DNA from: Dongia deserti | GTDB taxonomy: Bacteria > Pseudomonadota > Alphaproteobacteria > Dongiales > Dongiaceae | Length of the DNA stretch: 42,886 nucleotides | Reading direction: 5' to 3' | Assembly: GCF_003574735.1 (NCBI RefSeq) | Contig: NZ_QORW01000006.1 | Coordinates: 1-42,886, forward strand | In this document: positions 152 to 9,344 of the stretch, piece by piece | How positions within the stretch are numbered: the first letter of the stretch is position 1 | How the letters are laid out: each line of letters opens with the position of its first letter | Program-made: the position numbers and the translations under genes | The notes under the pieces: model-generated | What the model was told of the DNA's origin: nothing | Databases searched by the model: none | The model's input: the letters and a program-made list of their open reading frames with translations, nothing else

Positions 152-736
152 CTACGCCTTCGCCCGTCGCTTCACCCACACCCGTTCGTTGTCGACGCTT
201 GGCTTGAATCCCGCCTTCTTGAACAGCGTGCGGGTGCCGGTCCAGGCGAAAGCGGCGACGAGGTTCTGTTCCGGCTTCTGCGGTGTGGGATAGGCTTCGA
301 GCACGCGGGCGCCACGTTCGAACGCAGCCTTCACCGCCGAGTTGAGCAGCGCGCTCGCAATGCCGCGCTTGCGCCAGCCCGCGGCCACGAAAAAGCAATT
401 GATGCTCCACGTGCTGGGCGCCGCCTTATAGATCAGCACGCGCGAACGCTTGAGGCGCGGGAAGTCCTCGCGCGGGCCGAAGTTGCACCAGCCGACCGGC
501 TTGTCCTTGGCAAAGGCGAGGGCGCCCTGCACGCGGCCTTGGCGCAGCAACTTCAGGAAGGTGCGGCGGTTGGGGTCGCCCCAGCAGGCATTCCAGGTCT
601 TCCCGCCTTTCTCCACGCGCCAATGCATGCACCAGCAACCGCGGCATACGCTATTGGCGCTGAAGAGCTGCGTGATCAATCCAGTATCGTCCGGTGTCAC
701 GGGCCGGCACGCGATCGGCGGATTGCGGTTGTTCAC
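152..736 (-). CDS. GNAT family N-acetyltransferase
   Basis: Predicted acetyl-CoA-dependent N-acetyltransferase of 194 residues; substrate unknown. The acetyl-CoA binding signature (motif A, RKRGIASALL) lies at about residues 122-131, followed by the usual helix. A Cys-rich patch (CRGCWCMHW, about residues 31-39) precedes the fold and could bind a metal, which is inference. I chose the GTG at 734-736 because it overlaps the stop of the upstream patatin-like gene in a GTGA junction. The 47 extra residues of the longer frame are Arg/Cys-rich out-of-frame readthrough of that gene. It is the last gene of a likely ATP-grasp/patatin/GNAT transcript. Confidence 0.85.
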   Translation of the reverse strand: MNNRNPPIACRPVTPDDTGLITQLFSANSVCRGCWCMHWRVEKGGKTWNACWGDPNRRTFLKLLRQGRVQGALAFAKDKPVGWCNFGPREDFPRLKRSRVLIYKAAPSTWSINCFFVAAGWRKRGIASALLNSAVKAAFERGARVLEAYPTPQKPEQNLVAAFAWTGTRTLFKKAGFKPSVDNERVWVKRRAKA

Positions 737-1914
737 TCGGCCGCCTCCGGTTCCGCTTTCGCAGCTTCGCGCGCTGCACGGTGCACATCGTGGGTGACGA
801 CACCAAGGCCGCGCGGCCGTTCCAACCATTCCGGATGCTTCAGCGTGCGGCGGATGTCGGCGAGGCCGGCCTCCCAATGCTCCCGCATCGTGGGCAGGCT
901 GAACTCGTAGTCCTTGTGCTGCGCCTCATAGTGCTTCTCGCGATAGATCAGGTGAATGATGTTGTAGACCTTGGAGCAGGAGAGATCCCGCAGGTTCGCG
1001 ATCTCCGGATCGGAAGCGGTTTCCGGGGGCAGGCAGTCGAGCGCGCGCTTCAACGCGCGGCGCAGGCGCTGCAAGTCGGTTGCCGCATCGGTCGCCATGC
1101 GGGTGCGGCTGGAATAGCGGATGTCCTTTTCGCGCTCCGCGACGTCCAGAATATTCTGCGGCTGGGGGCCATCAGCACTCCACAGATCGACCTGGAAGGC
1201 GATCGTGTCGCGGCGCGGCGTGTGGCCCAGGACTTCGGTCAGCGGCGTGTTGGAGACGAGGCCGCCGTCCCAGAAATAGCGCCCCTCGATCTCCACCGCC
1301 GGAAAGCCGGGCGGCAAGGCGCCGGATGCCATGATGTGCTCCGGCACGATCTTGATCGCGGCGTTGTCGAAGTAGGCGAAGTTGCCGGTCTCGATGTCGA
1401 CGGCGCCGACGGAGAGCCGCGTCTCGCGCGCGTTGATGCGGTCGAAGTCGACCAGCCGTTCCAGCGTCTGTTTGAGCGGCGCGGTGTCATAGAAGCTGGT
1501 CGCCGCAATGCCGCCGAACGGCCAGAGGAACGGCGGCGGCACGCGCGGGGTGAAGAATCCATCCTGCCCGCCGAGCAGGGCGCGACCGGCCGCCAACGCG
1601 CTGATGGCGGCGCGGCCCGGACCGTCACCGGCCAACGCCGTGATCCGCTCCTCCAGCATCGCATCCGACAGCAGCGCGGAGCGGCAGATGGTCTCCCAGA
1701 ATTCGGTGAGGCGCGGCACCCGCTGGTCGGGCGCGTTGCCGGCCATGATGGCGGCATTGACCGCGCCGATGGAAATGCCGGCGAACCAATTGGGCTGGAT
1801 GCCGGCTTCGTGCAGGCCCTCGTAGACGCCGGCCTGATAGGAGCCGAGCGCGCCGCCGCCCTGCAGCACCAGGGCGACGGTCTCATAGGGCGGCAATTCG
1901 ATCCTGTCCGTCAT
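733..1914 (-). CDS. Patatin-like phospholipase family protein
   Basis: Predicted serine lipid acyl hydrolase (393 aa) with a Ser-Asp dyad. The glycine-rich oxyanion loop (GGGALGSYQAG) is at residues 20-29, the nucleophile elbow GISIG has Ser48, and the DGG motif has Asp216. The sequence after about residue 270 resembles the DUF3734 region often fused to this family. There is no signal peptide, so it is probably cytoplasmic or membrane-peripheral. The start ATG has no clear Shine-Dalgarno. It overlaps the downstream GNAT gene by 4 bp and sits 57 bp after the ATP-grasp-like gene. Possible roles are phospholipid turnover or polyhydroxyalkanoate metabolism; the sequence does not decide between them. 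Confidence 0.88.
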   Translation of the reverse strand: MTDRIELPPYETVALVLQGGGALGSYQAGVYEGLHEAGIQPNWFAGISIGAVNAAIMAGNAPDQRVPRLTEFWETICRSALLSDAMLEERITALAGDGPGRAAISALAAGRALLGGQDGFFTPRVPPPFLWPFGGIAATSFYDTAPLKQTLERLVDFDRINARETRLSVGAVDIETGNFAYFDNAAIKIVPEHIMASGALPPGFPAVEIEGRYFWDGGLVSNTPLTEVLGHTPRRDTIAFQVDLWSADGPQPQNILDVAEREKDIRYSSRTRMATDAATDLQRLRRALKRALDCLPPETASDPEIANLRDLSCSKVYNIIHLIYREKHYEAQHKDYEFSLPTMREHWEAGLADIRRTLKHPEWLERPRGLGVVTHDVHRAAREAAKAEPEAAE

Positions 1915-1971
1915 GGGGGTAAATGTAGAACGCGACCGCGGGCACCGCCAGCAGATTGCCGGTGGGGCGGA

Positions 1972-2934
1972 TCAAATCACCCAGCGGCCCTTTGTCATCC
2001 AGCGGTCATGACGCCGCTGCTCCTTGAGCACGCTGCTCTTGATCGGCACACGTTCCGCACTGTCCGGCGTGTCGATCCTTCTAAGCGCAGCGGCGAACTT
2101 CTCCTGGAACAACCTGTCCGCCTTGATGCGAACCGCAAACGGATGCTTCTCGAGGATGCCGATGGTCGGGTTGGTGTTGATCTCGTAGACCTGCGGTCGC
2201 CCGTCAACCATCCCGAAATCGGCGCGGCCGAACTCGATCTCGCCGATCTCGAACGCTGGCCGTATCTCAGCGCAATGGCGATCCTCGGCGACGATCCGGT
2301 ACTCGTCATCGTATAGGTCCTGGCCGGCGATGCCCATCTCGCCATCCTTGGCCACCCAGCTCGATTGATGGACGCAGAGCGCCGGCACCATGACGGCGCC
2401 CACGCGATAGCTCGCCAGTTTTCGGAACAAGCCCTCGCGAACCGCCTCCGCGCAATACTCCACCACCATCAGCTCGCGCCGTGGCACACCCCGGCCGATG
2501 CGCTCGGCAATCGCTGCTTCCAACGCGGCGCGGTCCCCCAGCAGTCCGCTGAACGATCCGCGATGGGCGGATTGGGCGCGCAGGAAGACGGGATAGCGGT
2601 CGGGCCATTCGCCGGCGTCCACGCTCCACACCGCGAAGCGGTTGAAACCCTGCTCGCGAAGGCGGCGCAGCAACGTGAAACGCTGGCAGACGATGGCAGG
2701 ATCGTTGAGCACCGTGAGGCCGGCAGCCTTCAGGCTGCGATAGGCGCGCGCGGCCAACTCCAACTCCCACGCGCCGAGCCGGTCGAAATCAGTGAAAACC
2801 CAGGTTCCCCTTGGCACGCGCCGCGACCGGAACAGCCGGTCATAGGTATAGGACGCGGTCTTTGGCACCCCCGGGAAGCCCAGCAGGCGCCGAAAGGTGT
2901 AAGCATGTGCAGCGGTGCTGACGAAAAAGATCAC
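1972..2934 (-). CDS. ATP-grasp fold protein of unknown substrate
   Basis: A 320-residue protein I recognise as ATP-grasp-like from its C-terminal half: a stretch ending FGRADFG, then VYEINTNPTIG, the acidic/Asn metal-binding signature that closes an ATP-grasp active site. The N-terminal half begins with a hydrophobic strand (MIFFVST) and an Arg/His-rich segment, as in a pre-ATP-grasp domain. Such enzymes join a carboxylate to an amine or thiol at the cost of ATP; the substrate is unknown here. The start is a GTG at 2932-2934 with only a weak ribosome binding site. It is divergent from the small peptide gene at 3038, with a shared 103-bp intergenic region. A role in modifying that peptide is possible but not shown, because it may instead belong with the downstream patatin/GNAT genes. 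Confidence 0.7.
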   Translation of the reverse strand: MIFFVSTAAHAYTFRRLLGFPGVPKTASYTYDRLFRSRRVPRGTWVFTDFDRLGAWELELAARAYRSLKAAGLTVLNDPAIVCQRFTLLRRLREQGFNRFAVWSVDAGEWPDRYPVFLRAQSAHRGSFSGLLGDRAALEAAIAERIGRGVPRRELMVVEYCAEAVREGLFRKLASYRVGAVMVPALCVHQSSWVAKDGEMGIAGQDLYDDEYRIVAEDRHCAEIRPAFEIGEIEFGRADFGMVDGRPQVYEINTNPTIGILEKHPFAVRIKADRLFQEKFAAALRRIDTPDSAERVPIKSSVLKEQRRHDRWMTKGRWVI

Positions 2935-3037
2935 AATTTCTGCGCTGGCCCCAAGGATAAATGCCGCATAAGAATTGCAAAGTCAGTTCAGGCTAGTAAA
3001 GTCTGTTTGACCAAGCTTATCCATCGGGGGATTTCTC
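2935..3037. promoter_or_regulatory. Divergent promoter region, ATP-grasp gene / peptide gene
   Basis: This 103-bp gap is clearly more AT-rich than its surroundings and separates two divergent starts, so it should hold both promoters. I cannot assign confident -35/-10 boxes. Just before the peptide gene there is a strong purine-rich ribosome binding site (GGGGGA, 3026-3031) 6 nt from its ATG. Confidence 0.5.
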
Positions 3038-3205
3038 ATGAATGGCGTGCAACTCGACGTGACCCGATTGTTGGGGTTCAAGATCGTGGTCAGCGGCCAG
3101 AACGTCAGGACCGCGAAAATTGGCGGCAAGCCCGACATCACCGAGCGCGCGGTGGCGGTTTCCACCGCCAAGATCGGCGCAAAGATCGGGGTTAAGGCCG
3201 GCTGA
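3038..3205 (+). CDS. Small Lys/Gly/Ile-rich peptide, candidate RiPP precursor
   Basis: A 55-residue ORF with a strong ribosome binding site (GGGGGA, 6-nt spacer) and stop TGA at 3203-3205. The N-terminal part (LDVTRLLGFKIVVSG) is amphipathic and could be a leader. The C-terminal part carries a repeated unit: TAKIGGK at 25-31, TAKIGAK at 43-49 and AKIGVK at 48-53. It has no Cys, Trp, Tyr or His, no signal peptide and no long hydrophobic helix, so it does not look like a membrane toxin. I recognise no family. Its position just before a HExxH peptide-hydroxylase-like gene suggests it is that enzyme's substrate; this is inference. Confidence 0.6.
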   Translation: MNGVQLDVTRLLGFKIVVSGQNVRTAKIGGKPDITERAVAVSTAKIGAKIGVKAG

Positions 3206-3228
3206 TCTGGCAGCTTCGTCGGGCGTGA

Positions 3229-3245
3229 ACCGGTTGAGATCCGGT
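3229..3245 (+). other. Short inverted repeat between peptide and HExxH genes
   Basis: ACCGG and CCGGT are separated by 7 nt in the gap between the peptide stop and the enzyme start. It could reduce transcription into the enzyme gene so that peptide exceeds enzyme. The stem is only 5 bp, so this is a weak call. Confidence 0.2.
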
Positions 3246-3280
3246 CCCCCATAGTGGCAGGCGGTCGGCTGCGCTCGCGT

Positions 3281-4267
3281 ATGTCTGAAGCGGCTCCTTT
3301 CGATCCGGATCCCGGGCGCGCAATTGCGTGCGACCGCGCGATGCAGAATGGCCTGGCCGAAAGTCTGTGTCATATCCAGGAACGATGCGTCGGCAAGCTG
3401 CCCTTCGACCACGCCGGAGTCATGCGCATTGTGGCCGAGATCCAGAGAGGGCGGCGCTTTCCGCCCTCGACCTTCGCGCTGTACTATGACTTGGTTCCGG
3501 CGCTCCTGGGCGATGACGAGGCAACCGTCCTGGCGCTCTTCGACGCGCTGGCGCGTGAGCGCCCCGTCGATGCGTCGCTCCAGGTGCTTGGCCTTGACGA
3601 TCCGGCGCTCAGAGCCTGCAGAGAGCGCTATGTGCGCTTCATGAACAGCGATCCGTCGTGTCCGTTCGATTTCCTGCCGCCGGCGCCGGAGCAGATCGAC
3701 GCTTTCAACCGCCAGTTCGACCGCGCGTGCGACCTGCTCAGACAGGCGAGTCCGAAGTTGCTGGAGGAGATGCGCGCCATCATCAGCCAGGTCATTCTGG
3801 TCATGGGGTCGAAGGGCGCGAGAATGCAGTTCGACGGCGGATCGGCCTACCGCTTGTGGGGGGCCCTGTTCCTGAATGCCGAACGCCATCAGACCCGGAT
3901 AGAATTGGCGGAGGTGCTGGCGCATGAGAGCGGGCATAGCGTGCTGTTCGGGCTCAGCACCGAAGAGGTGCTCGTGCTCAATCCCGACGAGGAACTTTTC
4001 GACTCTCCACTTCGGATCGAACCACGGCCGATGGATGGCGTGTTTCACGCCACCTATGTCTCTGCCCGCATGCACTGGGCGATGTCCCGGCTGATCGCCA
4101 GCGGGCTTCTGACCGAGGAGGAGTGTGCGCAAGCGGTGAAGGCGCGCGCCGAGGACCGGCGAAATTTCGAGAACGGCTACGCGATCGTTGCGGCCCATGC
4201 TCGGCTCACGAAGACAGGCCGCACGGCCATCGAGTCCGCGCTTTCCTACATGAGACAAGCTGCCTAG
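3281..4267 (+). CDS. HExxH motif protein, putative alpha-KG-dependent peptide beta-hydroxylase
   Basis: A 328-residue protein with a HESGH motif (His215, Glu216, His219, counted from the ATG at 3281). It is followed by a PSPLR-like segment ([13 protein letters not shown]) and a further conserved histidine in GVFHATYV (His256). This arrangement matches the family annotated as HExxH motif-containing putative peptide modification proteins (TIGR04267-like). As I recall, some members are now known to be iron/alpha-ketoglutarate-dependent peptide beta-hydroxylases rather than proteases. No signal peptide or membrane segment is seen. A GTG at 3254 would add nine residues; neither start has a clear ribosome binding site. 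It follows the 55-aa peptide gene on the same strand. Its stop is 6 bp from the convergent purH stop. Confidence 0.75.
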
Positions 4268-4273
4268 CGCGCT

Positions 4274-5857
<1,584 letters not shown>

Positions 5858-5894
5858 GAAGGGCTGTTCCCTGCGCTGTCGGATGGCGCGCCAG

Positions 5895-7658
5895 TTATCG
5901 CTTCGCGCTTTCCTTTTGCAAGGCCCATTTGACCTGGGTGGTGTCGTCCTCGATCGCGCCTTGCACCACCAGTTGCTGGGTGCGCCGCGCCGCGCCCGCC
6001 TGGCCGAGATAGATGCTGTCGGCCAGCGACAAGTCGCCGCCCTGCACCCGTAGGCGCCAGCCGCCACCCTGCGGCAGTTTCAAGAGCGCGGACTGGCTGC
6101 TCTGGCTCACCGAAACCTGCACATTCGGATGCAGATGGAAACGCAGGGCGAAGGTCCTGCCGCCGCGACCGGTCAGGGTCTCTTCGCCGATCAGCTCCAG
6201 GCCGTCCGGGGTCAGGAACAGGCGCCGCCGGTGGACCAGGTCGAACGGCTCTTCATAGCCATTGTGACGCGCATCCAGCCATTGCCCGGCCCCCGTCGCC
6301 TCGCGCCGCACCACCACGGCGCGTGGCGTCAAGGCGAGGCCGCCGCCATAGGGTCCGTCGGGCGGCAGCAGCATGCTGGAATTGGTGTCGTCCACCACCA
6401 GCGTCGAGTGCGCGGCGGTCGCGCGCTGGACCTGGCGCCATTCGGCTGCCGTCGGGTGCGCGCCGCAATTGACGATCATGCGCTCGCCGCCGTGGCTAAA
6501 CTCGAAGGACAGCGTGCCGGCATGGGCGTGACTATCGAGCCCGTGCGGCGGTGGCGCGCCGGTGTCGGAGATGAGGACGCTCCGCCCCGCGACCATGCGC
6601 TGGAATCCGGTGTGCGGCAGTTGCACCAGATCGCGCGCCTCGACACCGCTCGCGGCATCGGCACGCATCAGCGCCAGCAGGACGGCGGAGGACTTGCTCT
6701 CGGTCGAATCATTGAACAAGGCGAGGCCGCCATCGGGATGGGTCAGCAGCTTCAGCGCCGACGCGAGATTGCCGATGGTGGCGATAAGCTGATCCGGCAG
6801 CTTGCGCCCGGTCAACGCCAGCGCATGGTGCAGATCGAGCAGATGCTGCAGCAGGTCCAGCATGACGGACGGGCTGCGCTCGACATGGCCACCATCGGGC
6901 AGGATCTGCGCGTGCAGCTCGCGGTCAAGCAGCAGGCTGGCCTTGCGCAGCCACTTCTCACCCTGCGGCAGTAAGGCGCCGGCCAGCATGAGTGCGATGC
7001 AGGCTTTCAGCAGGTCGGAACCGTTGAGCCCATCCGGCAATGCCCGCGACAGATGCTCCGCCTGGCGATTGAGAGACCGCAGCAGGTGCGCGCGGAACAG
7101 GGCGTCGGTGTTGGTCTCGAGAAACACGCTGTTGAGCAGGCAGCGCCGCAGCCGCGCTGCCAGCACGTCGCTCGACCAAGTGAGGGAATCGTACGCCGCC
7201 GTGTCGGTGAACCAGGCGAGGACCGCGTGACGCGCGAATTGCCGCGCCTGCACGCCGCCGAAGGCGCGCAGCGTATCCAGCCAGACGAAGTTCGCCATCT
7301 GCCGCTGCCACGCTTCGGTCGCGCCGAGCGGGTTGTGCAGCGGCTTCGGATTCTTCACCACATCGGCGCCGAAGTGGAACTCGCCATTGAGCAGCGCCAG
7401 CGCCGGACGCGAATCGGCCGGCCAGATCTCCGTCGGGACGGCGGCCAATTCGCCGCTCGAGCGCTTGCCGAGGGTCGAGCCGTAGAGCCGACTGCGATAG
7501 AGCGGCTGCAGGAGCCGGCGCACTGCACGATGGGCCAGCAGCTTGGGCGGCAGCGCAAACAAGGTCTGCAGGCGCGGCGCCAGCAATTTGGGCCGGCGAT
7601 TGCCGCGCCGCGCCCTTTGCGGCGAAGGCTTGCGGAGCGTCTCAGCGAGGGCCGTCAT
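5895..7658 (-). CDS. Heparinase II/III family protein
   Basis: A 587-residue protein with the architecture of heparinase II/III-like proteins: an N-terminal all-alpha toroid (about residues 90-330) and a C-terminal beta-sandwich with [13 protein letters not shown] and VNCGAHP, which carry the conserved His and Asn of the lyase-like half. Family members cleave uronate-containing glycans by beta-elimination; the substrate of the chromosomal alphaproteobacterial version is not known to me. No obvious signal peptide. An AGAGG ribosome binding site precedes the ATG. It sits 11 bp after rpe and 37 bp before purH. This gene beside purH is, as I recall, a common alphaproteobacterial arrangement, which supports vertical inheritance. 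Confidence 0.9.
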
Positions 7659-7669
7659 CGGCCTGCCTC

Positions 7670-8344
7670 TCAGCCGCGCAACGCGGCGATGTTGGCGGCG
7701 TACTTGCTCGTGCCGCCCTGGAACGTCGCGGTGCCCGCCACCAGCACGTCCACACCGGCCGCGATCGCCCGCTTCGCAGTTTCAACGTTGATGCCGCCAT
7801 CGACCTCCAGGTCGATCGGCCGGCCACCCTGTTTCTCCGACACTGCGTCGATGCGCCGGCGCAACTCCTTGATCTTGTCCAGGCTGGACTCGATGAAGCG
7901 CTGGCCGCCGAAGCCGGGATTGACGCTCATCACCAGCACCAGATCGATTTCAGGCAGCAGCCACTCGATGGCAGAGATCGGCGTGCCAGGGTTGAGCGAC
8001 AGCCCCGCCTTCTTGCCGAGCGACTTGATGAGCTGGATGGTCCGGTGCGGGTGCGGCCCGGCTTCTGGGTGGAAGGTAATGATGTCGGCGCCGGCCTGCG
8101 CGAACTCCGCGACATAGGGGTCGACCGGCGCAATCATCAAATGGACATCGAACGGCAGCTTGGCGTGGGGGCGCAGCGCCTTCACCACCATCGGCCCGAT
8201 GGTCAGGTTCGGGACAAAATGCCCGTCCATCACATCCACATGGACATAGTCGGCGCCGGCCGCCGCAATCGCGCTCACTTCCGCGCCCAGCTGGGCGAAG
8301 TCGGCGGAGAGGATCGAGGGAGCGATGCGCGTCGTCTGCTGCAT
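7670..8344 (-). CDS. rpe: Ribulose-phosphate 3-epimerase
   Basis: Interconverts D-ribulose 5-phosphate and D-xylulose 5-phosphate in the pentose phosphate and Calvin pathways. The 224-residue TIM barrel has all the family signatures: APSILSADF at the N-terminus, [12 protein letters not shown] with the metal-binding His and catalytic Asp, [15 protein letters not shown], and EVDGGIN with the second catalytic Asp. It is the first gene of a minus-strand run with the heparinase-like gene and purH. The 204-bp region upstream is shared with the divergent response regulator gene. Confidence 0.98.
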
Positions 8345-8455
8345 GGCGGATGCTTACCACCCGCGGAGAGTCGAGGGCAAGGAACGGGACGCGCCCGTTT
8401 CCTCGGTCGTCCCCCGAAAGGTCTAGGTCGAATGCATACAGGTAAAGGTTGTGGC

Positions 8456-8474
8456 GGGTAATCAATTGTTACCC
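8456..8474. promoter_or_regulatory. Inverted repeat upstream of the response regulator gene
   Basis: GGGTAA and TTACCC flank the self-complementary-like spacer TCAATTG, giving a 19-bp dyad 75 bases before the response regulator start. It is in the divergent rpe / response regulator gap (8345-8548). The spacing and symmetry fit an operator for a dimeric regulator; the regulator is unknown. I see nothing else in this gap. Confidence 0.35.
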
Positions 8475-8548
8475 ACCTAGCCAACAGGATAGGGGGCTAG
8501 TGGCCCAATTCATGCTGCGACCCACAAGCCGGCCATCCGAGGTGAGTA

Positions 8549-8926
8549 ATGCGCGTATTGCTGATCGATGACGAACCGATGGTGCGCAAGATCGTGCGCC
8601 GGATGCTCGAACGTCTCGGGCACACGGTCGTGGAGGCGGAGAATGGCCGTTTCGGGCTTAACGAACTCGCCAAGAGTGCCGTCGATCTCGTCGTCACCGA
8701 CATCATCATGCCCGAAGTGGAGGGGCTCGAGGTCCTGATGGCGATACGACAGCAATATCCCTCGGTCGCGGTGGTTGCGATGTCCGGCAGCGGACACGCG
8801 AGCGCATTCAACACGCTTGATTTCGCGAGCAAGCTCGGGGCCACGGCGACTCTCGAGAAACCTTTCACCTGCGACGCGCTCGCGCGCGCGATCAATCAAA
8901 GCGCCGGCCATCAGATGGTGGCATAG
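8549..8926 (+). CDS. Single-domain response regulator (CheY-like receiver)
   Basis: A 125-residue protein that is only a receiver domain. The acidic pocket is Asp7/Asp8, the phospho-acceptor is Asp51 (VVTDIIMP), the switch residue is Ser79 and the conserved lysine is Lys104 (LEKPF). It lacks a DNA-binding or enzymatic output domain, so it must act through protein contact, like CheY or DivK, or as a phosphorelay intermediate. GAGGTGAG just before the ATG is an excellent ribosome binding site. No histidine kinase gene is nearby, so its partner is encoded elsewhere. Confidence 0.95.
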   Translation: MRVLLIDDEPMVRKIVRRMLERLGHTVVEAENGRFGLNELAKSAVDLVVTDIIMPEVEGLEVLMAIRQQYPSVAVVAMSGSGHASAFNTLDFASKLGATATLEKPFTCDALARAINQSAGHQMVA

Positions 8927-8999
8927 CCTACCAGGAACGGCCGTCCCTGAAGGGGGCGCACGCCGAAGAACGGAGGGCGAACGGCAAAGCCTTCGGCGG

Positions 9000-9344
9000 C
9001 TAATCACCGCGGGCGGGCACCACGCAGAACCGCTGGCCGGTCGGCGCTTCCATAACGACCCAATCCCTGACCTGTGAGACCGGCTTGGCGCCAAGCCGTT
9101 CGAGCCGCTGCACCTCTGCCTCGACGTCGGTAGACTCAATGTCGAGATGTACCCGGCTGGGATGGTCCACCTGCTGGACCTCGATGTTCAGGCCGCCTGG
9201 GCCCTTGGCGAGCTTGCGATACCCGGGATCGCCACCACCTTCTTCCAGCGGCAGGCGCAGAGCCTCGGACCAGAATTGCGCCGCAGCGTCCAGATCCTCC
9301 GTATTGCAATCGATGATGAATCCGACCAGTCCGCTCTTGTGCAT
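9000..9344 (-). CDS. VOC family (glyoxalase/bleomycin resistance fold) protein
   Basis: A 114-residue vicinal-oxygen-chelate fold protein. The two beta-alpha-beta-beta-beta halves can be traced: VGFIIDCNTEDLDAAAQFW at the start and RVHLDIESTDVEAEVQRL in the middle, ending with a TGQRFCVV strand. Possible metal ligands are His69 (in SRVHLD) and acidic residues in the strands. The enzymatic activity cannot be told from sequence; members include dioxygenases, lyases and resistance proteins. GGAGGCGGAG precedes the ATG. It appears monocistronic and is divergent from kbl. Confidence 0.85.
   Translation of the reverse strand: MHKSGLVGFIIDCNTEDLDAAAQFWSEALRLPLEEGGGDPGYRKLAKGPGGLNIEVQQVDHPSRVHLDIESTDVEAEVQRLERLGAKPVSQVRDWVVMEAPTGQRFCVVPARGD

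Follow-up and report, generated by a model that had tools for sequence, protein, structure and literature searches.

Closest described systems and the Dongia deserti locus

Peptide β-hydroxylases of the α-ketoglutarate-dependent HExxH type (aKG-HExxH; TIGR04267/IPR026337), which include ChlH, BpmH, PesO and PflC/PosC, are oxygenases that have been recognised as a family only recently and for which few substrates are known. According to the accessible parts of the reports, these enzymes are partnered by radical SAM, MNIO, MNIO-nitroreductase, JmjC or asparagine-synthetase-like proteins, and hydroxylation by the family has been reported on His, Asp, Phe, Gln and Pro (PMC13060819). In the present study we analysed a 42,886-nucleotide stretch of Dongia deserti DNA (contig NZ_QORW01000006.1; hereafter the window), the left part of which carries three small genes, encoding an ATP-grasp ligase, a 55-amino-acid (aa) precursor peptide and an HExxH oxygenase. 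The oxygenase resembles the above family in profile and fold, and has the HExxH motif and the SPxRxDxRPxxGxxHAxFV block in common with ChlH. Unlike in the aKG-HExxH systems described in those sources, its partner is an ATP-grasp ligase and its putative substrate is a peptide with K-x-G repeats.

Graspetide loci are similar in that an ATP-grasp gene adjoins the gene of a leader-bearing precursor; the window system differs from them by the additional oxygenase, and a minority of its cores are devoid of acidic residues. In the accessible part of a graspetide survey, metallopeptidases are described for one group of loci, the cores of which, however, bear a T/D signature; the main text of that survey does not contain the word "hydroxylase" (PMC8939145). 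The closest solved folds of the window ligase are those of LysX/ArgX and RimK (TM-score ~0.5 to 0.6, E ~1e-9), at 13 to 17% identity, and the C-terminal target of these enzymes is not conserved in the K-x-G precursors. Cyanophycin synthetase resembles the ligases of other loci (type B, see below), a type not present in the window. In the std pathway of Streptomyces, as far as the accessible part of the report goes, a lysine side chain is first carbamoylated and subsequently undergoes hydroxylation catalysed by an iron oxygenase, the enzymes being of different families (NodU-like carbamoyltransferase, MNIO; PMC13174530). The std pathway is a precedent, involving other enzymes, for the hydroxylation of a previously acylated lysine by such an oxygenase.

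Among the matches listed in the open literature, which covers few subscription journals, there was no description of an aKG-HExxH enzyme together with an ATP-grasp ligase or a K-x-G precursor. The term "ATP-grasp" is absent from the main text of a genome-mining paper on the aKG-HExxH family; HExxH, ATP-grasp and precursor peptide occur together in PMC13039773, the accessible part of which deals with a microviridin protease. The window locus belongs to a widespread and apparently undescribed precursor-oxygenase-ligase class built around a known oxygenase family. Its features are as follows (positions within the window).

1972..2934, minus strand: type A ATP-grasp ligase, 320 aa, GTG start, divergent from the precursor gene
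2935..3037, no strand: intergenic region between the ligase and precursor genes, as given by the gene layout, which would presumably hold the promoters
3026..3031, plus strand: GGGGGA, Shine-Dalgarno-like, 6 bases 5' of the precursor ATG
3038..3205 (stop codon counted in), plus strand: precursor peptide, 55 aa, recognised in held-out profile searches
3053..3085, plus strand: leader motif LDVTRLLGFKI, residues 6-16, from an alignment of 52 precursors
3116..3124, plus strand: first core unit K27-I-G29, a K-x-G repeat of the family
3170..3202, plus strand: core block KIGAKIGVKAG, with K45, K49 and K53 at a spacing of 4, the commonest K-x-G spacing
3281..4267, plus strand: aKG-HExxH peptide hydroxylase, 328 aa, assigned by the TIGR04267 profile, the relatives' profile and the fold
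3923..3937, plus strand: HESGH motif, with H215, E216 and H219 counted from ATG 3281, placed by a 63-row alignment

The ligase gene lies 103 bases away from the precursor start. The likely start of the oxygenase is ATG 3281, which aligns with the start of its congener's gene and is located 75 bases past the precursor stop; GTG 3254 is a possible alternative. An earlier interpretation based on the letters of this stretch (the sequence-only reading) had proposed a 55-aa gene with a strong ribosome binding site directly ahead of an HExxH gene, as well as HESGH at His215/His219 followed by a PLR/RP/HATYV-type block. All of these features were recovered here, the latter two when counting from ATG 3281.

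Precursor peptides encoded beside the oxygenase

Genome contigs were scanned with the oxygenase and 80 of the 81 relatives confirmed in this way were kept, which together with the window gives 81 loci. Outside this tally stand L005 and L006 (the same loci as L036 and L058, respectively) and L007-L010 (distant, with flanks of ~1.0 to 1.5 kb); L001-L004 correspond to parts of the window and its congener. According to the record titles, the 80 relatives originate from Pseudomonadota (73), Verrucomicrobiota (4), Planctomycetota (1) and Acidobacteriota (1), with one unlabelled; the Planctomycetota and Acidobacteriota occurrences are single metagenome-assembled genome records.

A precursor was present in 65 of the 81 loci (75 precursors in total), in 62 of them as found by the small open reading frame (ORF) search and in three via longer frames. 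It was encoded just 5' of the oxygenase in 64 loci and ~1 kb upstream in one (L073). The small-ORF profile produced 72 matches, of which 71 were placed just 5' of the oxygenase and shared its strand, the remaining one lying ~1 kb upstream. The seeds of this profile had been drawn from the 5' zone by leader pattern, and held-out tests were therefore run, which provide the cleaner evidence. With alphaproteobacterial training, all 37 matches in the other 40 loci fell in the 5' zone (35 loci); with non-alphaproteobacterial training, 32 of 33 matches in the 41 alphaproteobacterial loci did so (24 loci). Thus, 69 of 70 held-out matches were situated in a zone that makes up 1,289 of 20,134 segments, and the sole exception (L073) has the same layout ~1 kb upstream.

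The window ORF itself was found at E 3.5e-12 among 895 six-frame segments (runner-up 1.2) by a profile built without this ORF and its congener, and is therefore more than a chance frame. It was also found at E 4.4e-11 by a profile trained without Alphaproteobacteria, and in a scan of the 6.1-Mb genome with the precursor profile, which here included the window ORF, it was the single strong match (5.5e-13; next 1.15). As judged by these profile searches, the 55-aa ORF is real and is a member of the precursor family. The proposal of the sequence-only reading that the peptide is the likely substrate was strengthened by these results, homologous peptides being present beside other members of the enzyme subfamily.

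The window peptide has no match in Pfam or NCBIfam, and 52 related precursors gave isolated weak matches only. In the alignment of these 52 precursors the leader consensus is LDxSKLLGF, extended as LDxSKLLGFK, and sits near the N-terminus. The core of the window peptide contains four units (K27-I-G, K45-I-G, K49-I-G and K53-A-G), and the cores of the family are composed of 17% Gly, 13% Lys and 12% Ala. The repeat statistics cover 72 precursors, i.e. without the three found later. In these 72 cores we counted 224 K-x-G units against a shuffled mean of 66 and a maximum of 87 (500 shuffles), an excess that is partly explained by the pre-selection of the 57 seed peptides for at least one [KR]-x-G. 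K is mostly preceded by Ala, Ser or Gly, Gly is found two before K in 68% of cases, Val, Ile or Leu predominate at the middle position, and distance 4 is the commonest spacing (94 cases). The C-termini are variable: 16 different last residues were found in the 75 precursors (Ala being the commonest, n=21), and no three-residue ending was seen more than twice.

This variability bears on a different reading, in which the peptide is a LysW-like carrier, with a metabolite loaded on its C-terminus and the oxygenase working there before release. The closest ATP-grasp folds do include LysX/ArgX, which acts with LysW, and RimK; a conserved acceptor C-terminus was not found in the 75 precursors, whereas the internal K-x-G units are conserved. 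We therefore disfavour the carrier reading and regard it as clearly improbable.

Several loci encode more than one precursor: six in L047 and two each in L016, L028, L072, L078 and the congener locus L011. In L047 (Histidinibacterium lentulum) the six precursor genes are arranged in a row (4746-5977) with two type A ligases nearby. Other variants of the peptides were also observed. In L029, L061 and L063 the leader-like LDxxKLxG is itself repeated inside the peptide, alternating with K-x-G units. In L077, L079 and L080, which form one well-supported clade with type B ligases, the core units are stretched to K-hydrophobic-x-G, often with a period of 6. L084, L088 and L090 have small ORFs 5' of the oxygenase with another leader (L-x-PYG type) and AKVG/AKIG/TKVG units, which may constitute another family of precursors for this oxygenase subfamily. 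Finally, orphan precursors with the leader motif were detected in L132 and L133 (contigs C1 and C12 of genome G353), with neither oxygenase nor ligase found within ~1.5 kb; the same genome carries L005/L036, and the enzymes may act in trans on such unlinked precursors.

The HExxH oxygenase

By every feature that could be tested (profile, motifs and predicted fold) the window oxygenase is a member of the aKG-HExxH family, as the sequence-only reading had assumed. It matches TIGR04267 with 103.6 bits (cut-off 40), and a 63-row profile of its relatives matches ChlH (8s5f) at 1.6e-11; 22nu, whose deposition is named radical SAM core domain protein, is matched at 1.2e-10. The residues invariant in the 63 rows (H224, E225, H228, R254, R258, P259 and H265 in the numbering from the GTG) are common to 8s5f. 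The structural model (predicted local distance difference test score, pLDDT, 95.4) has fold matches below E 0.001 only to 8s5f (four chains; E 1.1e-9) and 22ob (SjiH), the next being APN1 at E 0.58.

The HExxH motif would also fit a metalloprotease, with the small ORF as a chance frame. The TIGR04267 match, the fold matches to 8s5f and 22ob with APN1 far behind them in E-value, and the held-out tests of the ORF speak against this; the assignment as a metalloprotease was ruled out by the profile and fold matches, and we attach practically no probability to it. Plasmid-borne kin were limited to distant matches, in 3 of 72,556 records and with identities of no more than 29%.

Three kinds of ligase in the vicinity of the oxygenase

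The suspicion, already voiced in the sequence-only reading, that the divergent ATP-grasp protein takes part was reinforced by the survey of the 81 loci. Within the fetched DNA (up to 6 kb on each side of the locus) a ligase was detected in 76 of them, or in 74 without two weak type C matches, and two kinds were never found in one locus. The loci contained (i) type A ATP-grasp ligases, as in the window (53 loci), (ii) type B ATP-grasp proteins (16 loci), (iii) type C proteins (7 loci, two of them weak), or (iv) no ligase (5 loci).

The window ligase scores 407 bits with a family model that includes it. Across 47 type A members the residues G236, R237, D239, E251, N253 and P256 are invariant; none of the 47 has a Pfam match at E 0.01, and matches in NCBIfam are only below cut-off, which compares the family with graspetide ligases indirectly. 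The structural model of the window ligase (pLDDT 95.8) gave 5k2m and 7qys as the best Foldseek matches (E ~1e-9; LysX/ArgX and RimK), closely followed by D-Ala-D-Ala ligases (Ddl), which the type A sequence also distantly resembles (1e-4). Type B, recognised by neighbour clustering in loci without type A, comprises cyanophycin-synthetase-like ATP-grasp proteins of roughly 500-700 aa. Five representatives matched NF010623 at E 5e-36 to 9e-103 (124 to 345 bits, cut-off 877), and these matches stop before the last third of the profile. Type C, which emerged from the same clustering, is an adenylation/thiolation/thioesterase protein (three were searched, one being an adenylation-only fragment), the adenylation domain of which has 6ulw/6ulx as its best relatives in the PDB.

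On a quick oxygenase tree, 9 changes of ligase kind were needed as against a shuffled mean of 20.6, and the well-supported branches alone force at least five changes for type A, five for type B and two for type C. For this analysis the weak type C of L089 was left unjudged and that of L081 counted as C; the adjoining ATP-grasp gene served to assign the second oxygenase of L072 to A by hand. These figures indicate that the ligase kind partly follows phylogeny and has been exchanged several times.

The window genome (G000) contains four further, lower-scoring ATP-grasp genes of the wider family of the ligase (C51:141512, C44:64082, C33:36664 and C33:68849; L116-L119). No convincing precursor match was present near them, and their neighbours, as inspected by eye, include glycosyltransferase-like and transporter-like genes.

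Separate genome samples

In a phylum-wide draw of 398 genomes, TIGR04267 was detected in 16, including that of the window. Five of the 16 non-window matches score as this subfamily and 11 as distant members, the line between them having been set after the scores were seen (E below 1e-80 versus above 1e-63). All five subfamily members were accompanied by a precursor and a ligase within ~1.5 kb (three of type A, one B and one C), and two of the five have exactly the same peptides as L070 and L087. Around the 11 distant members, over the same distance, no ligase was matched, and the only precursor match was weak and in the wrong place.

These data bear on the minimal pathway that the sequence-only reading had put forward as one of its possibilities, namely two genes and hydroxylation alone; the ATP-grasp gene would then be an unrelated neighbour. 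The five loci in which no ligase was detected would suit it. Against it stand the presence of one ligase kind near the oxygenase in 76 of 81 loci, its repeated exchange, and the lack of such a ligase within ~1.5 kb of all 11 distant family members. Because of the ligase tally and the exchanges, hydroxylation alone is unlikely; the two-gene pathway was rejected, and we consider it very improbable indeed. The sequence-only reading stands with respect to the enzyme family, the likely substrate and the suspicion about the ATP-grasp protein, and was too narrow in the size of the pathway. Nor is the locus an isolated case, as 80 related loci extend over several phyla.

A class-wide draw of 385 genomes, with numbers too small to weigh, contained the oxygenase in seven genomes, type A relatives in five and precursor matches in three. 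Three of the seven oxygenase genomes had a type A relative, and all three parts were found in the window genome and G353. Four of the oxygenases belong to the distant members; of the precursor matches, the third (L131) is a repeat without leader.

Proposed maturation pathway and its alternatives

The comparisons described above demonstrate, at the level of sequence, a precursor family, its place beside one oxygenase subfamily, its K-x-G repeats and the presence of one exchangeable ligase nearby. The identification of the peptide as the substrate and the architecture of the cassette are likewise well supported by them. We infer from the same material the chemistry, i.e. the site of hydroxylation, the lysine acceptor, the order of steps and the release of the core. 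We propose, with moderate confidence, that the three genes constitute a leader-guided maturation cassette like those of ribosomally synthesised and post-translationally modified peptides (RiPPs), in which lysines are loaded with an acid.

In such a pathway the aKG-HExxH enzyme would bind the LDxSKLLGFK leader of the 55-aa precursor, a role suggested by co-conservation. Using Fe(II), O2 and 2-oxoglutarate, it would hydroxylate residues of the K-x-G units, most likely at the β-carbon of either the lysine or the hydrophobic residue next to it. The divergent ATP-grasp enzyme would activate a small-molecule carboxylate (an amino acid or other acid) and join it to the peptide, with lysine side-chain amines as the most likely acceptors; in other loci the cyanophycin-synthetase-like ATP-grasp or the adenylation/thiolation/thioesterase protein would do the corresponding job. 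The lysine side chain is the most likely acceptor because the C-termini vary and the nucleophilic side chain in the repeat unit is that of lysine.

The source of the acid can be approached through the acidic residues of the 55 cores associated with type A ligases. Four of them contain no Asp/Glu and 20 have none after the start of the first K-x-G; the acid would therefore come from outside the peptide, at least there, and is most likely a small molecule. The same counts bear on the possibility that the system is a graspetide, in which the ATP-grasp enzyme would close lactone or lactam rings between side chains of the core. An ATP-grasp gene adjoining a precursor with a conserved leader is what would be expected in this case, lysines could form lactams, and at least one Asp/Glu is present in 51 of the 55 cores. 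However, the acidic residues needed for ring formation are missing from four of the 55 cores altogether and from 20 after the start of the first K-x-G, the ligase family has no Pfam match and only sub-cut-off matches in NCBIfam, and in other loci an adenylation-type protein takes the place of the ATP-grasp. The graspetide reading is therefore disfavoured and appears very improbable.

The strongest rival concerns the oxygenase, which could attack the α-carbon of glycine and cleave the backbone into short amidated peptides (x-K-hydrophobic-amide), with the ligase acting on the fragments. According to the accessible part of PMC12636437, PflC/PosC of the same enzyme family cleaves oxidatively at a small residue (alanine), leaving an amide, and the K-x-G unit has a constant Gly two after Lys and usually another two before it. 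The same source reports that ARMD motifs located nearer the middle of the peptide were left uncut by PflC/PosC (PMC12636437), other characterised members of the family hydroxylate, as far as the accessible reports describe them, and cleavage at glycine leaves the constant lysine unexplained. On balance, we judge it unlikely.

Several observations weigh against the lysine-loading pathway or the generality of its parts. The choice of seeds near the oxygenase by leader pattern means that leader and repeat frequencies are partly a product of construction. No precursor was obtained in 16 of the 81 loci. In two of these (L021, L059) the sequence ends just upstream of the oxygenase, four (L029, L051, L058, L088) have K-x-G-rich ORFs with a weak or no profile match, and six (L069, L071, L074, L081, L082, L086) are without any convincing precursor; a missing part is weak evidence, because contig ends cut many loci. 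The loci with no ligase match are L057, L068, L073, L084 and L088, the weak type C matches are those of L081 and L089, and that of L089 is perhaps a thioesterase only. Moreover, the rule of one ligase kind is local: a type A relative is located elsewhere in 5 of 20 genomes whose locus is without type A (L023, L058, L069 and L076, all with type B locally and the match of L076 being weak, and L057). In the class-wide draw, two of the five type A genomes (G094, G245) had no oxygenase. LysX and RimK have protein C-termini as their targets and are not known to act on lysines. The abundance of cores with at least one acidic residue also counts here, and glycine could be the oxidised residue, since it is as constant in the unit as lysine, by construction of the count.

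A broader proposal, to which we give somewhat less than an even chance, is that the lysine-loading cassettes represent a new RiPP class extending over several phyla, in which a conserved oxygenase and a K-x-G scaffold would work with ATP-dependent ligases that differ in origin and can replace one another. Each ligase would attach a carboxylic or amino acid of its own to the many hydroxylated lysines of a peptide, so that the scaffold is decorated in a modular way. If lysine loading holds, the cassette would be a compact peptide-decoration system with a swappable ligase and would provide a function for an ATP-grasp family that has no Pfam entry. With a defined repeat motif and a regular ligase partner, dozens of loci become testable in Escherichia coli by means of three small genes.

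Neighbouring genes and other features of the loci

The seven neighbouring proteins tested in the window (155-9344) are a GNAT acetyltransferase, a patatin phospholipase, PurH, a heparinase II/III-like protein, a ribulose-phosphate 3-epimerase, a response regulator and a glyoxalase-like protein. Pfam gave a radical SAM match neither for the oxygenase nor for these seven neighbours, in agreement with the sequence-only reading, which had seen no such gene. A scan of positions 1900-4350 for consensus promoters and terminators gave no matches, nor did the tRNA and Rfam scans.

A 413-aa open frame runs antisense to the oxygenase (window 3017-4258, minus strand), and similar antisense frames cluster in 49 loci; it was not accepted as a gene, and is probably a high-GC artefact of the coding strand.

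No protease cluster was prominent among the 25 most widespread neighbour clusters, and neither a dedicated protease nor an exporter was prominent within ~6 kb of the loci. Other recurrent neighbours among these 25 clusters were limited to ABC-type ATPase frames, which were present at varying positions in 8 loci, and to the common surroundings of one Burkholderiales clade.
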